64,000 nt of DNA, from positions 274,236 to 338,235 of the forward strand of contig NZ_JALGCL010000003.1 in assembly GCF_022808325.1 (NCBI RefSeq), read 5' to 3'. The DNA comes from Cognatiluteimonas sedimenti (GTDB taxonomy: Bacteria; Pseudomonadota; Gammaproteobacteria; Xanthomonadales; Xanthomonadaceae). Shown here in pieces: positions 1 through 6,168 of this stretch. Every line of letters starts with the position of its first letter. The stretch's first letter is position 1. The notes beneath the pieces are model-generated. The model was not told the origin of the DNA. It ran no database searches and was given only the letters and a program-made list of their open reading frames with translations. Both the position numbers and the translations under genes were made by a program.

Positions 1-380
1 GCCCCGCCCCGGAGTTCTGCGAGCAGCGCCATGTTTGGAGTGCCATCCTGTAGCGATTGCCAGGCAGCCAGCAACTGTTCTTTGTTCGCGGTGATCCACG
101 CCAGCACAATTGCCTCCTCGCGTAGTCCCAGCCGGCCCTCAAGCCGCTTAGGTGGATCCAGCGAAAAACTTGCCGAGTGGTGCTCCTTGCCGTGGTCGAC
201 GTGCAAGTGCGGGAGCGGGTGACCCTTCTCTTGGTACATCTTCAGCTTCAGGCGCTGGACCCTGCGAAGTAGATACGCATTGAAGCCTCTGCCCGGCCTC
301 GGGTCGCCAGTTGGAGGTTTAACGACCCCAAGCGAGCTTTGAAGCCGTTTAGCAAGCTCCGAAAACGATTCACTCGCCAT
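1..380 (-). CDS. DUF4160-like cassette protein (3' truncated by window edge)
   Basis: Starts at ATG 380-378, only 10 nt after the cassette recombination point, with no Shine-Dalgarno sequence, which is common for cassette genes. About 126 residues are visible. The segment around residues 48-65 (KMYQEKGHPLPHLHVDHG) and the later WITANKEQLLAAWQSL stretch resemble the DUF4160 family: a short His-rich strand, then a terminal helix with a W-x(n)-W pattern. DUF4160 proteins are small, of unknown function, and often sit in accessory DNA beside DUF2442 genes in toxin-antitoxin-like pairs. No partner can be seen because the window ends. The family call rests on remembered sequence patterns. The function is unknown. 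Confidence 0.7.
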   Translation of the reverse strand, partial: MASESFSELAKRLQSSLGVVKPPTGDPRPGRGFNAYLLRRVQRLKLKMYQEKGHPLPHLHVDHGKEHHSASFSLDPPKRLEGRLGLREEAIVLAWITANKEQLLAAWQSLQDGTPNMALLAELRGG

Positions 381-390
381 AGGGGCCTAA
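1..390 (-). mobile_element. Integron gene cassette 2 (partial, cut by window edge)
   Basis: This is the second cassette of the array. It starts at the recombination point inside the GTTAGGC core (minus strand, 391-385) and runs off the left edge, so its own attC is not visible. It carries a DUF4160-type gene on the minus strand, reading away from intI as cassette genes usually do. Confidence 0.85.
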
Positions 391-501
391 CGCTTGAATT
401 AAGCCGACCCGTAACGCGTGGATCGGAAGCTAAGAAAAACGACGCTGCCATACATTTGAACGGAGCGCCGATACGGGTTCGGCTTGAATGAATTGTTAGG
501 C
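385..501 (-). repeat. attC recombination site (59-be) of cassette 1
   Basis: On the minus strand the site opens with GCCTAAC (501-495, R'') and closes with GTTAGGC (391-385, R'). The arms are imperfectly complementary over about 27 nt: GCCTAACAATTCATTCAAGC at one end pairs with GCTTAATTCAAGCGTTAGGC at the other. The length of 117 bp lies within the known attC range. The unpaired bases in the arms are the kind that fix strand choice for IntI. The arms closely resemble attC sites of mobile class 1 integron cassettes as I remember them. Confidence 0.93.
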
Positions 502-836
502 CGCAATGCCCATTGCTGCCCGGAATACAAACACCCAATAGAACGAGACCCAGAATGTAGCGCAACAGGCCAAAGCAACCCAGAAAATCCACCGGACTGC
601 CTTGGCCCGGGACTTTGCAACCAAGAATAAGTACCACGCCACAAAAAAACTCGCGCAGACAACGAGCGGCGCAAGCACGAACAATCCGATAAAGAGAGGC
701 GAGACGTCCAGGCGGCTGACCTGCCGCAACCACAAAAGCTGCGCTGCGAATACGACTGAAGCAATGACGAGCAGAACAACTGCAATGCTTTTAAGGCGAA
801 GTGCTTGCATCAGCGAATGCTCTGGTTGCGGCCTAA
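391..836 (-). mobile_element. Integron gene cassette 1 (complete, 446 bp)
   Basis: The cassette is bounded by two GTTAGGC cores on the minus strand, at 837-831 (attI junction) and 391-385 (attC end), with cleavage expected between G and TTAGGC. It holds one membrane-protein gene followed directly by its attC. It is the attI-proximal cassette and therefore probably the most recently inserted and the best expressed. Confidence 0.92.
496..810 (-). CDS. Small integral membrane protein of cassette 1, unknown function
   Basis: The gene encodes 104 aa, starting at ATG 810-808. No family is recognised. Three hydrophobic segments are visible at about residues 8-28, 37-65 and 73-96. Short charged loops (SRLDVS and AKSRAKAVR) separate them, so it is probably a three-helix inner-membrane protein. 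The stop codon TAA (498-496) lies inside the attC core GCCTAAC, so gene and recombination site are fused to the base. There is no clear Shine-Dalgarno sequence. Codon use is less GC-biased than in the chromosomal genes to the right. Its role cannot be inferred from the sequence. Confidence 0.85.
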   Translation of the reverse strand: MQALRLKSIAVVLLVIASVVFAAQLLWLRQVSRLDVSPLFIGLFVLAPLVVCASFFVAWYLFLVAKSRAKAVRWIFWVALACCATFWVSFYWVFVFRAAMGIAA

Positions 837-998
837 CACCTAGTAGACCCCAAAAGCGGGGATATGGACCGGATATTCATGTTCGGCGGCAGGTGCGTCA
901 AGCAGGAAACCCCTACATACAATCATGGCCTTGGCTGATGTTGCCGCGCCTGACGGATGGCCACGCTGTTGCCGGACAACCGGCACGGACGCGGGCAT
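837..998. promoter_or_regulatory. Integron attI region with candidate cassette promoter
   Basis: This 162-bp region lies between the first cassette junction (GTTAGGC core, minus strand 837-831) and the intI start. It must contain attI. Two GGATAT-type direct repeats at about 859-876 resemble the repeated integrase-binding motifs of attI sites. On the minus strand TTGACG (902-897) could be the -35 of the cassette promoter, followed 16-18 nt later by the AT-rich TGAATATC. On the plus strand TACAAT (918-923) is a possible -10 for intI. Neither promoter has two good boxes, so both are tentative. Confidence 0.55.
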
Positions 999-2033
999 AT
1001 GTCTTATCAGGGACGAAGTGAGGCGGTATCGGGGGCGGGTGCGGAAGCGATCAACGCGCACAAACCGCGCCTGCTCGACGACGTTCGCCGCCGTCTGCGG
1101 GTCAGGCACTACAGCGTGCGCACCGAGCGGGCCTACGTGGGCTGGATACGCCGGTTCATCCTGGCCAACGGCAAGCGCCACCCGCGCGAGATGGGCGCGC
1201 AGGAGGTCGAGGCGTTCCTGACGGTGCTGGCCACGCGCGGCAAGGTCGCGGCCAGCACCCAGAACCAGGCGCTGTCGGCGCTGCTGTTCCTGTATCGGGA
1301 GGTGCTGCGGCTGGACCTGCCGTGGATGGAGGACGTGATCCGGGCCAAGCGGCCGCAGCGCCTGCCGGTGGTGTTGTCGGTGCTGGAGGTGCAGTCGCTG
1401 CTGGCGCGGATGGAGGGGCGGCCGTGGCTGATCGCCAGTGTGCTGTACGGCACCGGCCTGCGCCTGATGGAATGCCTGCGGCTGCGGGTCAAGGACGTGG
1501 ACTTCGCGCGCAACGAGATCATGGTGCGCAACGGCAAGGGCGGCAAGGACCGGCGCACGGTGTTGCCGCGGACCTTGATCGAGCCACTGCAGCGCGAGGT
1601 CGAGCGGGCGCGGACGGTGCACCGCGAGGATCTCGCCGCAGGCTTCGGCGAGGTCTGGCTGCCGCATGCGCTGGGCCGCAAGTACCCCAATGCGGGGCGC
1701 GAGTTCGGCTGGCAGTACGTGTTCGCGGCGCGTTCGCGCTCGCGCGACCCGCGCGACGGCAGCGAGCGTCGTCATCATTTCGACGATGGCGTGCTGTCGC
1801 GCGCGCTCAAGCGCGCCTGCGTGCGCGCCGGCATCGCCAAGCCGGTCAGCGCGCACACGCTGCGGCATTCGTTCGCCACCCACCTGCTCGAGGCCGGTTA
1901 CGACATCCGCACCATCCAGGAACTGCTCGGGCACAAGGACCTGGCCACGACCCAGGTCTATACGCATGTCCTCAACCGCGGCGGTGGCGGCGTGCTGAGC
2001 CCGCTGGACAGCGCAGGGACGGGACGCGCTTGA
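999..2033 (+). CDS. intI: Integron integrase (tyrosine recombinase IntI)
   Basis: Catalyses attI x attC and attC x attC recombination, capturing and excising gene cassettes. The 344-aa form starting at ATG 999 matches the usual IntI length; an in-frame ATG at 957 would add 14 residues. The N-terminal SAM-like core-binding domain spans about residues 22-108. The catalytic domain carries Arg155 (GTGLRLME), His286 and Arg289 (HTLRHSFA), His312 (LLGHKD) and the nucleophile Tyr321 (TTQVYTHV). The segment at about 221-244 (LPHALGRKYPNAGREFGW) is the extra helix that separates IntI from XerC/D and grips flipped-out attC bases. All catalytic residues are present, so the enzyme looks functional. It diverges from the cassettes, the standard integron arrangement. 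Confidence 0.96.
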   Translation: MSYQGRSEAVSGAGAEAINAHKPRLLDDVRRRLRVRHYSVRTERAYVGWIRRFILANGKRHPREMGAQEVEAFLTVLATRGKVAASTQNQALSALLFLYREVLRLDLPWMEDVIRAKRPQRLPVVLSVLEVQSLLARMEGRPWLIASVLYGTGLRLMECLRLRVKDVDFARNEIMVRNGKGGKDRRTVLPRTLIEPLQREVERARTVHREDLAAGFGEVWLPHALGRKYPNAGREFGWQYVFAARSRSRDPRDGSERRHHFDDGVLSRALKRACVRAGIAKPVSAHTLRHSFATHLLEAGYDIRTIQELLGHKDLATTQVYTHVLNRGGGGVLSPLDSAGTGRA

Positions 2034-2187: not shown

Positions 2188-5100
2188 TCAACGCTCCTTG
2201 CGCCAGTTGACCGAGGCGCGGTTCTCGACCGTGCTGGATTCGATCTCGATGTCGAAGCCCTTGCGCAGCAGGTACTTCAGCGTCAGCACCTGGCCGGTGC
2301 CGAGCAGCGACACGCCGTAGCCCACGTAGAGTTTCGGCGACAGGTACTTGCCCACGCCCAGCACGCTGCCGCCGAGCGCGCGCGACTCCATCACCCCGGC
2401 GTCGTCGAGGCCGATCCGCGCGCCCAGCTGCGAGGCCAGCAGGCTGCCGCCGGCGGACAACGCGGCCGAGGCGGCATCGAGCTGGCGGCTTTCGTCGCCG
2501 CTGGCGCTGGCCAGCGGCCGCCCGAGCGCGAGCCACGCCAGCGCCTCGGACTGGTCGGTCGGCGGGTCGGTCCAAACTTCCGCCTGCGGCCGTGACGCGC
2601 GGCCGCTGACATCGATGCCGGCGGTGACGTCGCCGACCTCGCGCTGCGCGCGGATGTCGAGCAGCGGATCGGCGATCGGGCTGCCGGTCCACACCAGCCG
2701 CCCGCGCGTGATCTCGAGCTTCTGGCCGTAGGCGCGGTAGCGGCCGCCGACTTCGAGCGTGCCGCTGGCTAGCATCTCGCTGCCCGGGCGCGTGCGCACG
2801 CGCAGGCTGCCGCCGAGGGTGCCGTCCAGGCCGAAGCCGTCCAGGCGCACGTCGTCGCCCAGTGCCAGGGTGAGGTCCAGCTGCAGCGGCGTGGCGACGC
2901 CGCGCTCGGGGTCGACCGGATCCAGCACCACCACGTCGGGCGAGGTCGACACGCCCTGGTCGAGGCGTTCCAGGTCGATCCGCGCGCTGGGCACGCCGAC
3001 GGTGCCGCTGACGGCGAGCGGCTGGCCGGCGGCGTAGCGCACCACCACGTCGGGATCGATCACCGCGTGCAGGTCGCGGGTGTCGGACGCCAGCACGTTG
3101 CGTCCGCGTACGTTGAGCACTAGCGGCTTGGCCTGCCCTGAGCTTGTCGAAGGGTCGTTGCTGCGCCAGCCCAGCGTGCCGTCGAGGTCGAGGGTGCCGT
3201 CGCCGGAGCGCAGCGAGCCGTGGATGCGCGCCGTACCGTCGGCCTGCGCGTCCATGCGCACGTCGCCATCGTCCAGCGTGATCGCCAGTGCCGGCAGCTC
3301 GGTGTGGAACGCGGAGAGGTGCGCGCTGCCGCCCAGCGATGGTTGCGCGCGGCTGCCGCCCAGGGTGACGCGGCCTGCGAGCCTGCCGGTCGGCTCGACG
3401 ATGTCCGGCGACAGCAGTTCCATCCAGGTCAGCTCGTCGGTATCCAGCGCGATCTCGCCGGACAGCGGCGCATGCGCATCCCAGCCGCTGGCGACATGCG
3501 CGTCGATGCGGCCGTCGCCGTTGAGCGCGGCGCGCAGGGTGGCGTCGAAGCGTTGCGGATCGAAGCGCGCATCGAGCGCCAGCTGCCGGTAGGCCACGAG
3601 ATCGTTGCGCGCGCGCGCGCTGTTCTTCAGCCCGCCCTGCGCGGACGTGAGCCTGGCGTTGCCGCGCCAGCCGCTGCCGGCCGCGCGCACGTTGGCGTCC
3701 AGCGCGATCTCGCCGTGCAGCAGCCACGGCAGGCCATCGCTGCGCGCGGGCAGCCACGGCGTCGCCAGCGCCAGGGGCAGGCCGCGGCCGTGGACGTCCA
3801 GGCCGCGGCGTGGCCAGTCGCCGCTCGCGCACAGTTCGCCGCCATCGCTGGCGGCCAGGCAGCTGCGGTCCAGCGTCCAGCCCCCGCCCGCCTGCGCGTA
3901 GCGCGCCGGTGCCTGCAATCGCCACGCATCGCCGCGCGCGGGCTGCAGCTGCAGCGTCGCCAGCGTGCCTTGCCAGCGGCCGTTGCGGCGCGCGGCGCTG
4001 CCGCCCAGTGCGAGCTGGCCGAGCGGGCCGTCGGCATTGGCGTCGAGCTGCAGCTGCTCGACCGCGCCGCGGGCGTCGACGTGCAGGCGGTCGACGGCGA
4101 TGCCCGCCTCCACGCCGCTGGCGTCGACCACCAGCGCGCCGCCGCTGCCGCGCCACGGCAGCCGGCCGCGCGCGTGCAGGCGGTCGGCGCGGTAGTTGCC
4201 GTAGCGCAGGCGGCTGCCGTCGAGGTTGGCGTCGAGGTCCGGCGCGTTGCGCGCGCCGCGTAGCGCCAGCGTGCCGCGCAGGGTGCCGGCGCCGGTCGGC
4301 AGCAGGTCGCGCAGTTGCAGCGGCGCGAAGCGCGCGTCGATGGCCAGGGTGTCGGCGACGGTGCCGCGCGCCTCGAGGCGGCTGCCGCCGAGGCTGAGCG
4401 CGAGTTCGCCTTCGTAACGCGTCGGCGTGGCGGCCTTGCCCGCGGTGCGCAGCGCCAGGCGGCCGTGGCCGGCGAGCGTGCGGCCGCGCAGGCGGCCGCC
4501 GAAGTTCCCGGCGTCGAACGTGGCATCCAGCCCGCCATCGGCGCGCGCGGCGCCGTGGCTGCTGAGGCGGCCATCGATGGCGCCGTCCCAGTCGGGCAGG
4601 AAGTAGCCGGGGTCGAAGCCGGCCAGCGTTGCGTCCAGGTCCCACGCCAGCGCCGGCGACCAGCGCGCGTGGCCGCGCGCGTCGAGCGTGCCCGTGGGCA
4701 TGGTCGCGTGCAGCTGCCGGATCGCGGCGTGCGCGCGGTCGCCGCGGGCGTCGAAGCGCAGGCGCGCGCGCTGGCGGTCGCGCAGCAGCGTGGTCGTGCC
4801 GATCGCGGCCCAGGCGTCGGGCTGGCCGGCGATGCCGAGGGCGGCGTCGGCCGTGACCGCGGGCGCGCCATCGGCGCCGCCCCAGCGCAGGCCGCGCGCG
4901 TTGATCGCAAGCTCGATCGCGGGCTTGCCGTGGCTCGCGGCCGACGCGGCGCGGTCGCGCAGGTCGGCGTGGCCACGCGCGCTGACGCGGCCGCCGAGCA
5001 CATCCACCACCAGCGGCTGCAGCCTCAGCACCTGCTCGGCCAGTTGTACGCGCGAGGGCTGGATCGTGGCGGCCACGCCATTGCGCTCGATCCGGCCGCG

Positions 5101-6168
5101 CAGGCGCGCATCGCCGCCGTCGCCGTTGGCGTGCAGCGCGAACTTGAGCGGCGTGCCCGGCTCCCCGCTGCCGGCCAGCAACCCCGGATCCAGCGCATCG
5201 GACCGTGCGCGCAGCGACCAGCGCGGCGCGGCGCCGGCGCGGGGATCGTGCAGCACCAGCGTCGCCTGCAACGGCGCCGGTGCATTGCCGGCGAGCGCCA
5301 CCTGCATCCGTGCCAGGTCGCCGCGCGCCACCAGCCCCAGCCGCGGCGCTGCGCGGCCTGCCGGCGCCGGCAGCACCGCGGTCGCGACCAGGTCGCTGCG
5401 GTAGTGGTCGCGCGGCGCGTAGTCGCCGTGCGCGCTGAAGCGGCCGCGGTCGCTGTCGACGGCCAGGTGCTCGACGTGCAGGCGGCCGTCGGACGCATCC
5501 AGCCCGCCGCGCGCGCTGCGGATCGTCACCAGCGGTTGCGTGTCGCGCGTGACCACCAGTTGGTCGATCCGGATCGTGTCGGCCTGCAGCGCCAGCGGCG
5601 GCGCGATCTGCGGCAGCGATTCCGGCCAGCGCGGCAGCTTGAACGGGGTAGCGCTGCGCGGCAGGTCGAGGCTGGCGTCGCGCACATCCAGCGCATCCAG
5701 ACGCAGGCGCTTGCCCAGCAGCGGCCGGATCGCGGGGTCGATGACGATGGTGCGCGCACGGAAGGTGATCCGGCCCGTCGCGCAGCGTGCCGTGGCGGTC
5801 GCCACGCAATCGGCGTCGAGCTGGCGCGGCATCGAGAAGCGCACGCCGTGCAGCGTCATCGGCCCGGACGCCGGGCCTTCGGCGCGCTCCCACGACAGCG
5901 TGGTCCCGGCCGGCAGCCGCGCCACGATCTGCCGCAGCAGCAGGTCGCGGCCGCCGATGCTGGTGAGCAGCCACCACAGCAGCACCGCCGCGGCCAGCAC
6001 CAGCGCCACGGTGCCGATGCCGCCGCGGATCGCGATCCTGCGTTGCCGCTTGCGCCGCAGCGTGCGCAGCTCGGCGATCCGCGCCTCGCGCGCCTGCGCG
6101 TCGGCGTCCGCCGGCAACGGCTCCAGGCCGTAGCGGCGGTAACGGCGGTAGCGTTCGCGCCAGTTCAC
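2188..6168 (-). CDS. tamB: Translocation and assembly module protein TamB
   Basis: TamB is a very large inner-membrane-anchored periplasmic protein. It works with TamA in outer-membrane protein assembly and is implicated in phospholipid transport to the outer membrane. The 1326 aa match the family length. Residues 44-70 form the single N-terminal membrane anchor, preceded by a very basic stretch (LRTLRRKRQRR). The long middle part is repetitive beta structure (AsmA/TamB type). The C-terminal TamB domain (DUF490, about residues 980-1326) ends in the family-like GVSLLGTGQVLTLKY and KGFDIEIESSTVENRASVNW. The start is GTG 6168, overlapping the tamA stop as GTGA, so the two are translationally coupled. 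An in-frame short repeat insertion lies at 3132-3156. Confidence 0.95.
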   Translation of the reverse strand: MNWRERYRRYRRYGLEPLPADADAQAREARIAELRTLRRKRQRRIAIRGGIGTVALVLAAAVLLWWLLTSIGGRDLLLRQIVARLPAGTTLSWERAEGPASGPMTLHGVRFSMPRQLDADCVATATARCATGRITFRARTIVIDPAIRPLLGKRLRLDALDVRDASLDLPRSATPFKLPRWPESLPQIAPPLALQADTIRIDQLVVTRDTQPLVTIRSARGGLDASDGRLHVEHLAVDSDRGRFSAHGDYAPRDHYRSDLVATAVLPAPAGRAAPRLGLVARGDLARMQVALAGNAPAPLQATLVLHDPRAGAAPRWSLRARSDALDPGLLAGSGEPGTPLKFALHANGDGGDARLRGRIERNGVAATIQPSRVQLAEQVLRLQPLVVDVLGGRVSARGHADLRDRAASAASHGKPAIELAINARGLRWGGADGAPAVTADAALGIAGQPDAWAAIGTTTLLRDRQRARLRFDARGDRAHAAIRQLHATMPTGTLDARGHARWSPALAWDLDATLAGFDPGYFLPDWDGAIDGRLSSHGAARADGGLDATFDAGNFGGRLRGRTLAGHGRLALRTAGKAATPTRYEGELALSLGGSRLEARGTVADTLAIDARFAPLQLRDLLPTGAGTLRGTLALRGARNAPDLDANLDGSRLRYGNYRADRLHARGRLPWRGSGGALVVDASGVEAGIAVDRLHVDARGAVEQLQLDANADGPLGQLALGGSAARRNGRWQGTLATLQLQPARGDAWRLQAPARYAQAGGGWTLDRSCLAASDGGELCASGDWPRRGLDVHGRGLPLALATPWLPARSDGLPWLLHGEIALDANVRAAGSGWRGNARLTSAQGGLKNSARARNDLVAYRQLALDARFDPQRFDATLRAALNGDGRIDAHVASGWDAHAPLSGEIALDTDELTWMELLSPDIVEPTGRLAGRVTLGGSRAQPSLGGSAHLSAFHTELPALAITLDDGDVRMDAQADGTARIHGSLRSGDGTLDLDGTLGWRSNDPSTSSGQAKPLVLNVRGRNVLASDTRDLHAVIDPDVVVRYAAGQPLAVSGTVGVPSARIDLERLDQGVSTSPDVVVLDPVDPERGVATPLQLDLTLALGDDVRLDGFGLDGTLGGSLRVRTRPGSEMLASGTLEVGGRYRAYGQKLEITRGRLVWTGSPIADPLLDIRAQREVGDVTAGIDVSGRASRPQAEVWTDPPTDQSEALAWLALGRPLASASGDESRQLDAASAALSAGGSLLASQLGARIGLDDAGVMESRALGGSVLGVGKYLSPKLYVGYGVSLLGTGQVLTLKYLLRKGFDIEIESSTVENRASVNWRKER
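3132..3156. repeat. Short dispersed repeat inserted in frame in tamB
   Basis: The sequence contains GCCCTGAGCTTGTCGAAGG, whose reverse strand (CCTTCGACAAGCTCAGGGC) I recognise as a widespread proteobacterial dispersed repeat. In TamB it is translated as DPSTSSGQA, a stretch out of keeping with the surrounding beta-repeat sequence. The frame is preserved. Confidence 0.75.

Follow-up and report, generated by a model that had tools for sequence, protein, structure and literature searches.

A chromosomal integron of the Lysobacteraceae kind beside tamB: complete as far as assembled, ordinary by kind and informative for its address

Chromosomal integrons are termed sedentary. How, then, did the integron described here come to lie beside tamB? 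The window (the whole stretch of 64,000 nucleotides that was analysed, C3:274236-338235 of a 2.74 Mb genome that is 99.97% complete) opens with gene cassettes, an attI site and an integrase gene, followed by tamB. The first-pass annotation, made from the sequence alone, had given ilvD as the integron address of Xanthomonas, and PMC12444791 agrees. The site in the window is a different one, although ilvD adjoins intI in eight other genomes of the family. Our analyses show an integron that is complete as far as it is assembled, ordinary by kind and informative for its address. Based on sequence comparisons, we put the probability at roughly 85% that this is a complete chromosomal integron of the Lysobacteraceae kind; its proposed history is arrival at tamB by lateral gain or replacement, rather than descent from a family-wide tamB integron.

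The integrase, attI and cassettes of the window

The features at the left end of the window are as follows.

1..390, minus strand: cassette 2, truncated at the left end of the window; its ORF (3-380) contains DUF4160 (PF13711, 49 bits, cut-off 23)
385..501, minus strand: attC of cassette 1, 117 nt, long form; 68.7 bits, E 1.4e-16 with a covariance model that has this site among its 36 training sequences
392..836, minus strand: cassette 1, complete, bounded by GTTAGGC cores beginning at 837 and 391
496..810, minus strand: ORF of cassette 1, 104 aa, hydrophobic by eye, no family found
831..862, minus strand: attI, a CCCC-loop-GGGG hairpin, TCTACTAG, with the core GTTAGGC at 831-837
957..2033, plus strand: intI, integron integrase, intact ORF of 358 aa; probable start ATG 999 (344 aa)
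2188..6168, minus strand: tamB, the right-hand neighbour, convergent with intI (PF04357, 200 bits)

The description of intI as encoding a complete integron integrase was upheld. In a profile search, its intact ORF scored 482 bits against NCBIfam TIGR02249 (cut-off 265), versus 149 bits against XerD and 146 bits against XerC, both below their cut-offs. The match to VchIntIA (PDB 2a3v) reached 312 bits with 312 residues aligned, corresponding to IntI residues 26-337 of the 344-aa form. In this alignment, the stretches GTGLR, GKGGKDR, HTLRHSF, LLGHKD and VYTH are each paired with a VchIntIA counterpart, as is KYPNAGREFGWQYVF, which lies between the active-site halves. We take the five stretches to carry the six catalytic residues and KYPNAGREFGWQYVF to be the integron-specific helix. 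Since the TIGR02249 match begins at residue 39 of 358 and the VchIntIA match at residue 26 of 344, ATG 999 appears to be a likelier start than the ORF start at 957. We predict that the enzyme is active in recombination.

The Phage_integrase domain (Pfam) present in IntI is common to XerC, XerD and phage-type recombinases, and the gene could in principle encode one of these next to unrelated repeats. However, the Xer scores are far below that for integron integrases, and the VchIntIA alignment is continuous across the stretch that separates the active-site halves. In addition, the two other matching genes of the host genome, taken as XerC and XerD, are sited elsewhere, and an attC array exists beside intI. 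In the tree described below, IntI groups with Luteimonas and not with XerC/XerD. By these comparisons, the Xer or phage-type identity is refuted, and we give it practically no chance.

The attI site adjoins intI and appears to be conserved among the putative attI of relatives. Its best matches among the putative attI of the family were 50 of 57 in G008 and 48 of 57 in both G042 and G004. Read on the minus strand, the GTTAGGC core of attI starts at 837 and the one that forms R′ of attC at 391, with the R″ box GCCTAAC starting at 501. The first-pass annotation counted two cassettes with such cores. One is indeed complete, and the other runs off the window, so the count of two holds only if the cut one is included. 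A 23-base pattern, drawn from the family attC consensus with the 385-501 site included, matched twice in the 64 kb at up to three mismatches, both times at this attC, and in 0 of 100 shuffles. Fold prediction favours the minus strand of the site (z = -4.1) over its plus strand (z = -2.7). Separately, the ORF of cassette 2 resembles the toxin DhiT (NF048015, 40 bits, below the cut-off of 100).

IntI proteins bind double-stranded attI, whereas attC is bound in a folded single-stranded form, with exchange at G/TTAGGC, and new cassettes enter at attI, where they are best expressed. In the window's integron, circular cassettes would be integrated by IntI at attI (831-862), and their excision or shuffling would take place at attC sites folded as single strands. 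New cassettes would enter beside attI while older ones are pushed left, and transcription of the cassettes would come from the attI region. A sigma-70 promoter scan of 780-1100 gave no match (0.2 expected). TTGAC lies within 120 nt before the core in 39 of the 63 loci with a recognised core (63 of 101 loci), a weak hint that it may act as a cassette promoter. SOS control of the integron was considered and found to be unsupported: upstream of intI (831-1010) there is no exact match to three consensus forms of a LexA-type box, and one match with two mismatches, at 841.

The array to the left and the tamB junction

The first-pass annotation expected the array to run past the left edge with more attC sites, and it continues for about 9.5 kb beyond the window. 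We examined 80 kb (C3:196300-276299) with a covariance model built from 36 attC sites, which found 12 attC on the array strand of this locus (L006), from C3:265181 to 274736; 11 were found on C3 when the host's own genome was scanned. Three array attC belong to the training set and are the top scorers (76.1, 70.5 and 68.7 bits), all nearer attI. The remaining nine score 19.1 to 55.9 bits, and scores tend to drop, unevenly, away from attI. A strict attC regular expression recovered only 2 sites in the 80 kb, so the covariance model was required.

Six N-runs, each of 56-60 bases, interrupt the 5 kb or so of the array nearest attI, falling between ORFs at expected attC positions. These are all the N-runs of the 80 kb, and the 64 kb window has none. 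No attC half is visible at the edges of the six; in a second array of the host genome, on contig C1, one of four N-runs directly precedes an attC 3′ half. Based on their position, their size and the C1 case, we infer that the C3 gaps hide attC repeats that the assembler failed to resolve. Together, the 12 attC and the six gaps point to about 18 cassettes; several of the attC are divergent. A sedentary chromosomal integron has a long array of very similar attC, with a threshold of about 20.

The cassette ORFs lie on one strand. Among their products, an alpha/beta hydrolase with TPR, a protein with a glyoxalase fold, and a YCII and a DUF305 protein were recognised, and the rest of the scanned array ORFs match no family above cut-off. 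To the left of the window, a TIR-like cassette protein of the CAP12/PCTIR kind (L006:15933-16601, minus strand; Pfam 23.8 bits, cut-off 24.7) is possibly a phage-defence effector. A search for defence cassettes with PADLOC, covering nine proteins, yielded only weak TIR matches in a single protein (best E 5.5e-5), and this candidate role for the array was dropped. In the family, short attC sites (about 60 nt) and long ones (about 107-120 nt) have outer arms in common and are mixed in single arrays (e.g., L019 and L028).

On the right, tamB was correctly named as the integron's neighbour, and its end at 2188 lies 154 bp past the intI stop. Left of the last recognised attC, about 2.4 kb carry TspO, MAPEG and a second glyoxalase-like protein. 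The gene at the left junction is the following.

C3:261398-262819, convergent with tamB: left junction gene, weak BNR-repeat match (28.1 bits, below the cut-off of 31.4)

We took up to 8 kb beyond tamB from 17 family genomes that have no intI there. In 12 of them, the junction gene and the next gene are near tamB with their order kept. The distance from tamB to the junction gene is about 180 bp in G042 and up to about 4 kb in others. G039, which has intI at tamB, also keeps the junction gene and its neighbour past its array. As these genes are otherwise close together, the integron occupies a junction between near neighbours.

Could the integron have come on a transposon or other mobile element, as a mobile integron that later settled? 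A displaced, truncated intI amid transposases in X. oryzae pv. oryzicola, reported in section 10 of PMC12444791, lends this some credence. In the window's integron, however, 154 bp separate intI from tamB, and no transposase was found by Pfam among 19 ORFs of the array and left flank that were scanned. We consider a mobile-element origin improbable. Taken together, the sequence features are those of a chromosomal integron lodged between stable genes.

IntI lineages and integron addresses in the family

The nearest named IntI, at 85% identity, is that of Luteimonas weifangensis WF-2, now Cognatiluteimonas weifangensis (Lysobacteraceae), and the host is close to this species. A tree was built from the 80 best named matches and rooted on the two Xer-type proteins of the host genome; in it, the window's IntI pairs with that of L. 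weifangensis (support 98). Both fall within a set of 26 rows (support 96) comprising 10 Lysobacteraceae, 7 Rhodanobacteraceae and 9 rows that carry no family name. The phylogeny that the first-pass annotation proposed as a check therefore places this IntI with its relatives. Within the family, intI (E up to 1e-80) was found in 110 of 159 genomes and 41 of 49 genera, and in the window's genus in 8 of 9 genomes, the ninth being 76% complete. Five genomes (G053, G102, G131, G145 and G152) have second IntI copies that are 49-51% identical to the window's IntI, so some family genomes may harbour a further, distinct IntI lineage.

The 3′ flanks of intI were compared in 101 of the 110 genomes (the window and 100 others); G034, G038, G068, G069, G092, G131, G136, G138 and G155 were left out, and second intI copies were excluded from counts. 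Grouping was by single linkage on a common flanking gene (above 200 bits, 45% identity, within 6 kb), a procedure in which groups may be merged by paralogues or divided where flanks are short. It gave 41 groups, reduced to 40 when two tamB groups were merged by hand. By this measure, intI lies in about 40 neighbourhoods, 17 with at least two genomes and 23 with a single one. Direct matches to the gene that names a group were distributed as follows.

mfd: 17 of 18 group members (one of the 17 in reverse orientation)
ilvD: 8 of 8
MsbA-like transporter: 5 of 5
comEC: 5 of 5
hemE: 5 of 5
mgtE: 4 of 4
phhA: 4 of 4
GT41 gene: 1 of 5
CMAS: 2 of 3
tamB: four flanks, those of the window (G000), G008, G039 (genus g32) and G035 (genus g28), and no other of the 101

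The GT41 and CMAS groups are held together by other genes, so the address groups are neighbourhoods more than exact sites. The sigma-54 regulator gave matches at two single addresses as well. In 63 of the 101 genomes, the gene called first on the 3′ side of intI is convergent; a preference for convergent neighbours was rejected when counted by address (22 versus 16, with 2 ties; p 0.42).

The eight intI of the window's genus are found at three addresses: tamB (G000, G008), the MsbA-like transporter (G001, G003, G004, G006) and mfd (G002, G007). In G001, G003 and G006, an aidB-like gene lies between intI and the transporter. One-clade tests were run on the genus rows and on four addresses, using trees of IntI alone, built with a single model (LG+G4, quick search), with genus codes standing in for a species tree. 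A single clade was rejected for the seven genus rows of IntI (AU p 1.9e-10) and for the four tamB rows (p 0.020), the MsbA-like transporter (p 0.0047) and ilvD (p 0.017); it was not rejected for comEC (p 0.25). The window's IntI does not join the eight ilvD rows. Mapped on the 101-row tree, the 17 shared addresses require 33 changes (minimum 16; mean of 56.5 after shuffling), and for genus labels the count is 54 (minimum 38, with 39 genera). The idea that IntI tracks address more than genus (33 versus 54 changes) was dropped, as the respective minima of 16 and 38 leave no such difference. These trees suggest that an address is kept over short distances yet recurs in separate IntI lineages.

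The first-pass annotation concluded that either the location differs or the integron moved. The first part stands, as the address is tamB. The second needs refinement: because family members carry the integron at many addresses and a single address can host different IntI lineages, lateral gain or replacement would be at least as likely as movement inside a genome.

Arrays apart from intI and comparison with known systems

At the tamB junction of G001, G003 and G006 (L178, L220 and L182), there are attC arrays with no intI, and the sole intI match of each genome (E up to 1e-60) is at the MsbA-like transporter. A tblastn search of the tamB regions in G001 and G006 turned up no intI remnant (best E 5.6 and 1.6). 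G001 and G003 keep the junction gene on the far side of the array. The tamB arrays of G001 and G006 each have an attI-like site at their head. Among 64 putative attI of the family, some of which may be attC ends, its best match is the attI of the genome's own distant intI (38 of 57 in G001 and 50 of 57 in G006, versus at most 32 in 20 shuffles each), not that of the window (26 and 32). For the G003 array, the best attI match is 33, at the edge of chance. The G001 and G006 matches indicate at least two attI types at the tamB junction in one genus. Either the platform was copied to a second address and intI was then lost there, or one integrase may keep two arrays.

These observations bear on whether the ancestral integron of the genus or family stood at tamB, with the window's integron inherited in place and the others moved or lost. 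In favour of such descent, intI or attC is present at tamB in five of the eight genomes examined in the window's genus (G000, G008, G001, G003 and G006), and intI also adjoins tamB in G039 and G035, which belong to other genera. However, 15 of the 17 tamB 3′ regions with no intI have no attC at E up to 1 (the exceptions being G001 and G006), and three of these 15 are from the same genus (G002, G004 and G007). The rejection of a single tamB clade of IntI and the mismatch between the window's attI and the attI-like sites of G001 and G006 also speak against it. We therefore regard inheritance from an ancestral tamB integron as rather unlikely, and favour arrival at tamB by lateral gain or replacement. 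A broader proposal is tentative, and we would not expect it to hold: that the Lysobacteraceae integron is not sedentary, its platforms occupying recurrent addresses and replacing one another, with some species running a divided integron. In G001 and G006, this would comprise one integrase, beside the aidB-like gene and the MsbA-like transporter, and two distant attI-headed arrays, the second at tamB.

The integron of C. weifangensis (NZ_QVPD01000016.1, taken as G008) is alike in its IntI (85% identical), its tamB address and its attI (50 of 57). About 260 bp upstream of the intI match, its contig stops. Of the 83 attC matches in G008, those listed are on other contigs, so its array was probably split by assembly. 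The chromosomal integron of Vibrio cholerae has an integrase (VchIntIA, 2a3v) of like architecture over 312 residues; it differs in host and address, with about 18 cassettes seen or inferred for ours. The ilvD integron of Xanthomonas, as presented in PMC12444791 (citing Gillings 2005), has the same IntI family, an attI by intI, an attC array and intI-less arrays elsewhere. In contrast, the window's address is tamB, its IntI does not group with the eight ilvD rows, and its intI is intact, unlike the many Xanthomonas copies that are reported as broken.

In principle, replacement of this sort at a fixed address has a precedent. According to section 10 of PMC12444791, strains of X. arboricola that are 97.1% identical in ilvD are 68.2% identical in intI, which that section reads as transfer from another family member. 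According to the same paper, the integron address is mostly fixed within Xanthomonas. This does not hold one level up, with about 40 neighbourhoods in 101 genomes, three of them in one genus, and IntI lineages crossing genera. In the openly available literature, searched by title and abstract, we found no report of the tamB address or of a family-wide address map. The window's genus has intI-bearing, array-only and empty states at the tamB junction, and so offers a compact natural series for platform gain, loss and replacement. The lateral history of the platform in the family is the part worth following, and chromosomal integrons are regarded as the reservoir that supplied resistance cassettes (abstract of PMC8352920).

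The host genome itself has a second, intI-less cassette array at about 101.6-106.3 kb of contig C1 (C1:101651-106300, L230), the one with four N-runs mentioned above. Clusters apart from intI are described for about half of Xanthomonas genomes in PMC12444791. The C1 array contains one strong attC (C1:105293-105404, 48.6 bits), which is closely like the attC of the congeners' tamB arrays, and a further match of 17.9 bits. By eye, its ORFs include a KAP-type NTPase and a glyoxalase-fold protein, with a seeming transposase remnant near 104.4 kb.
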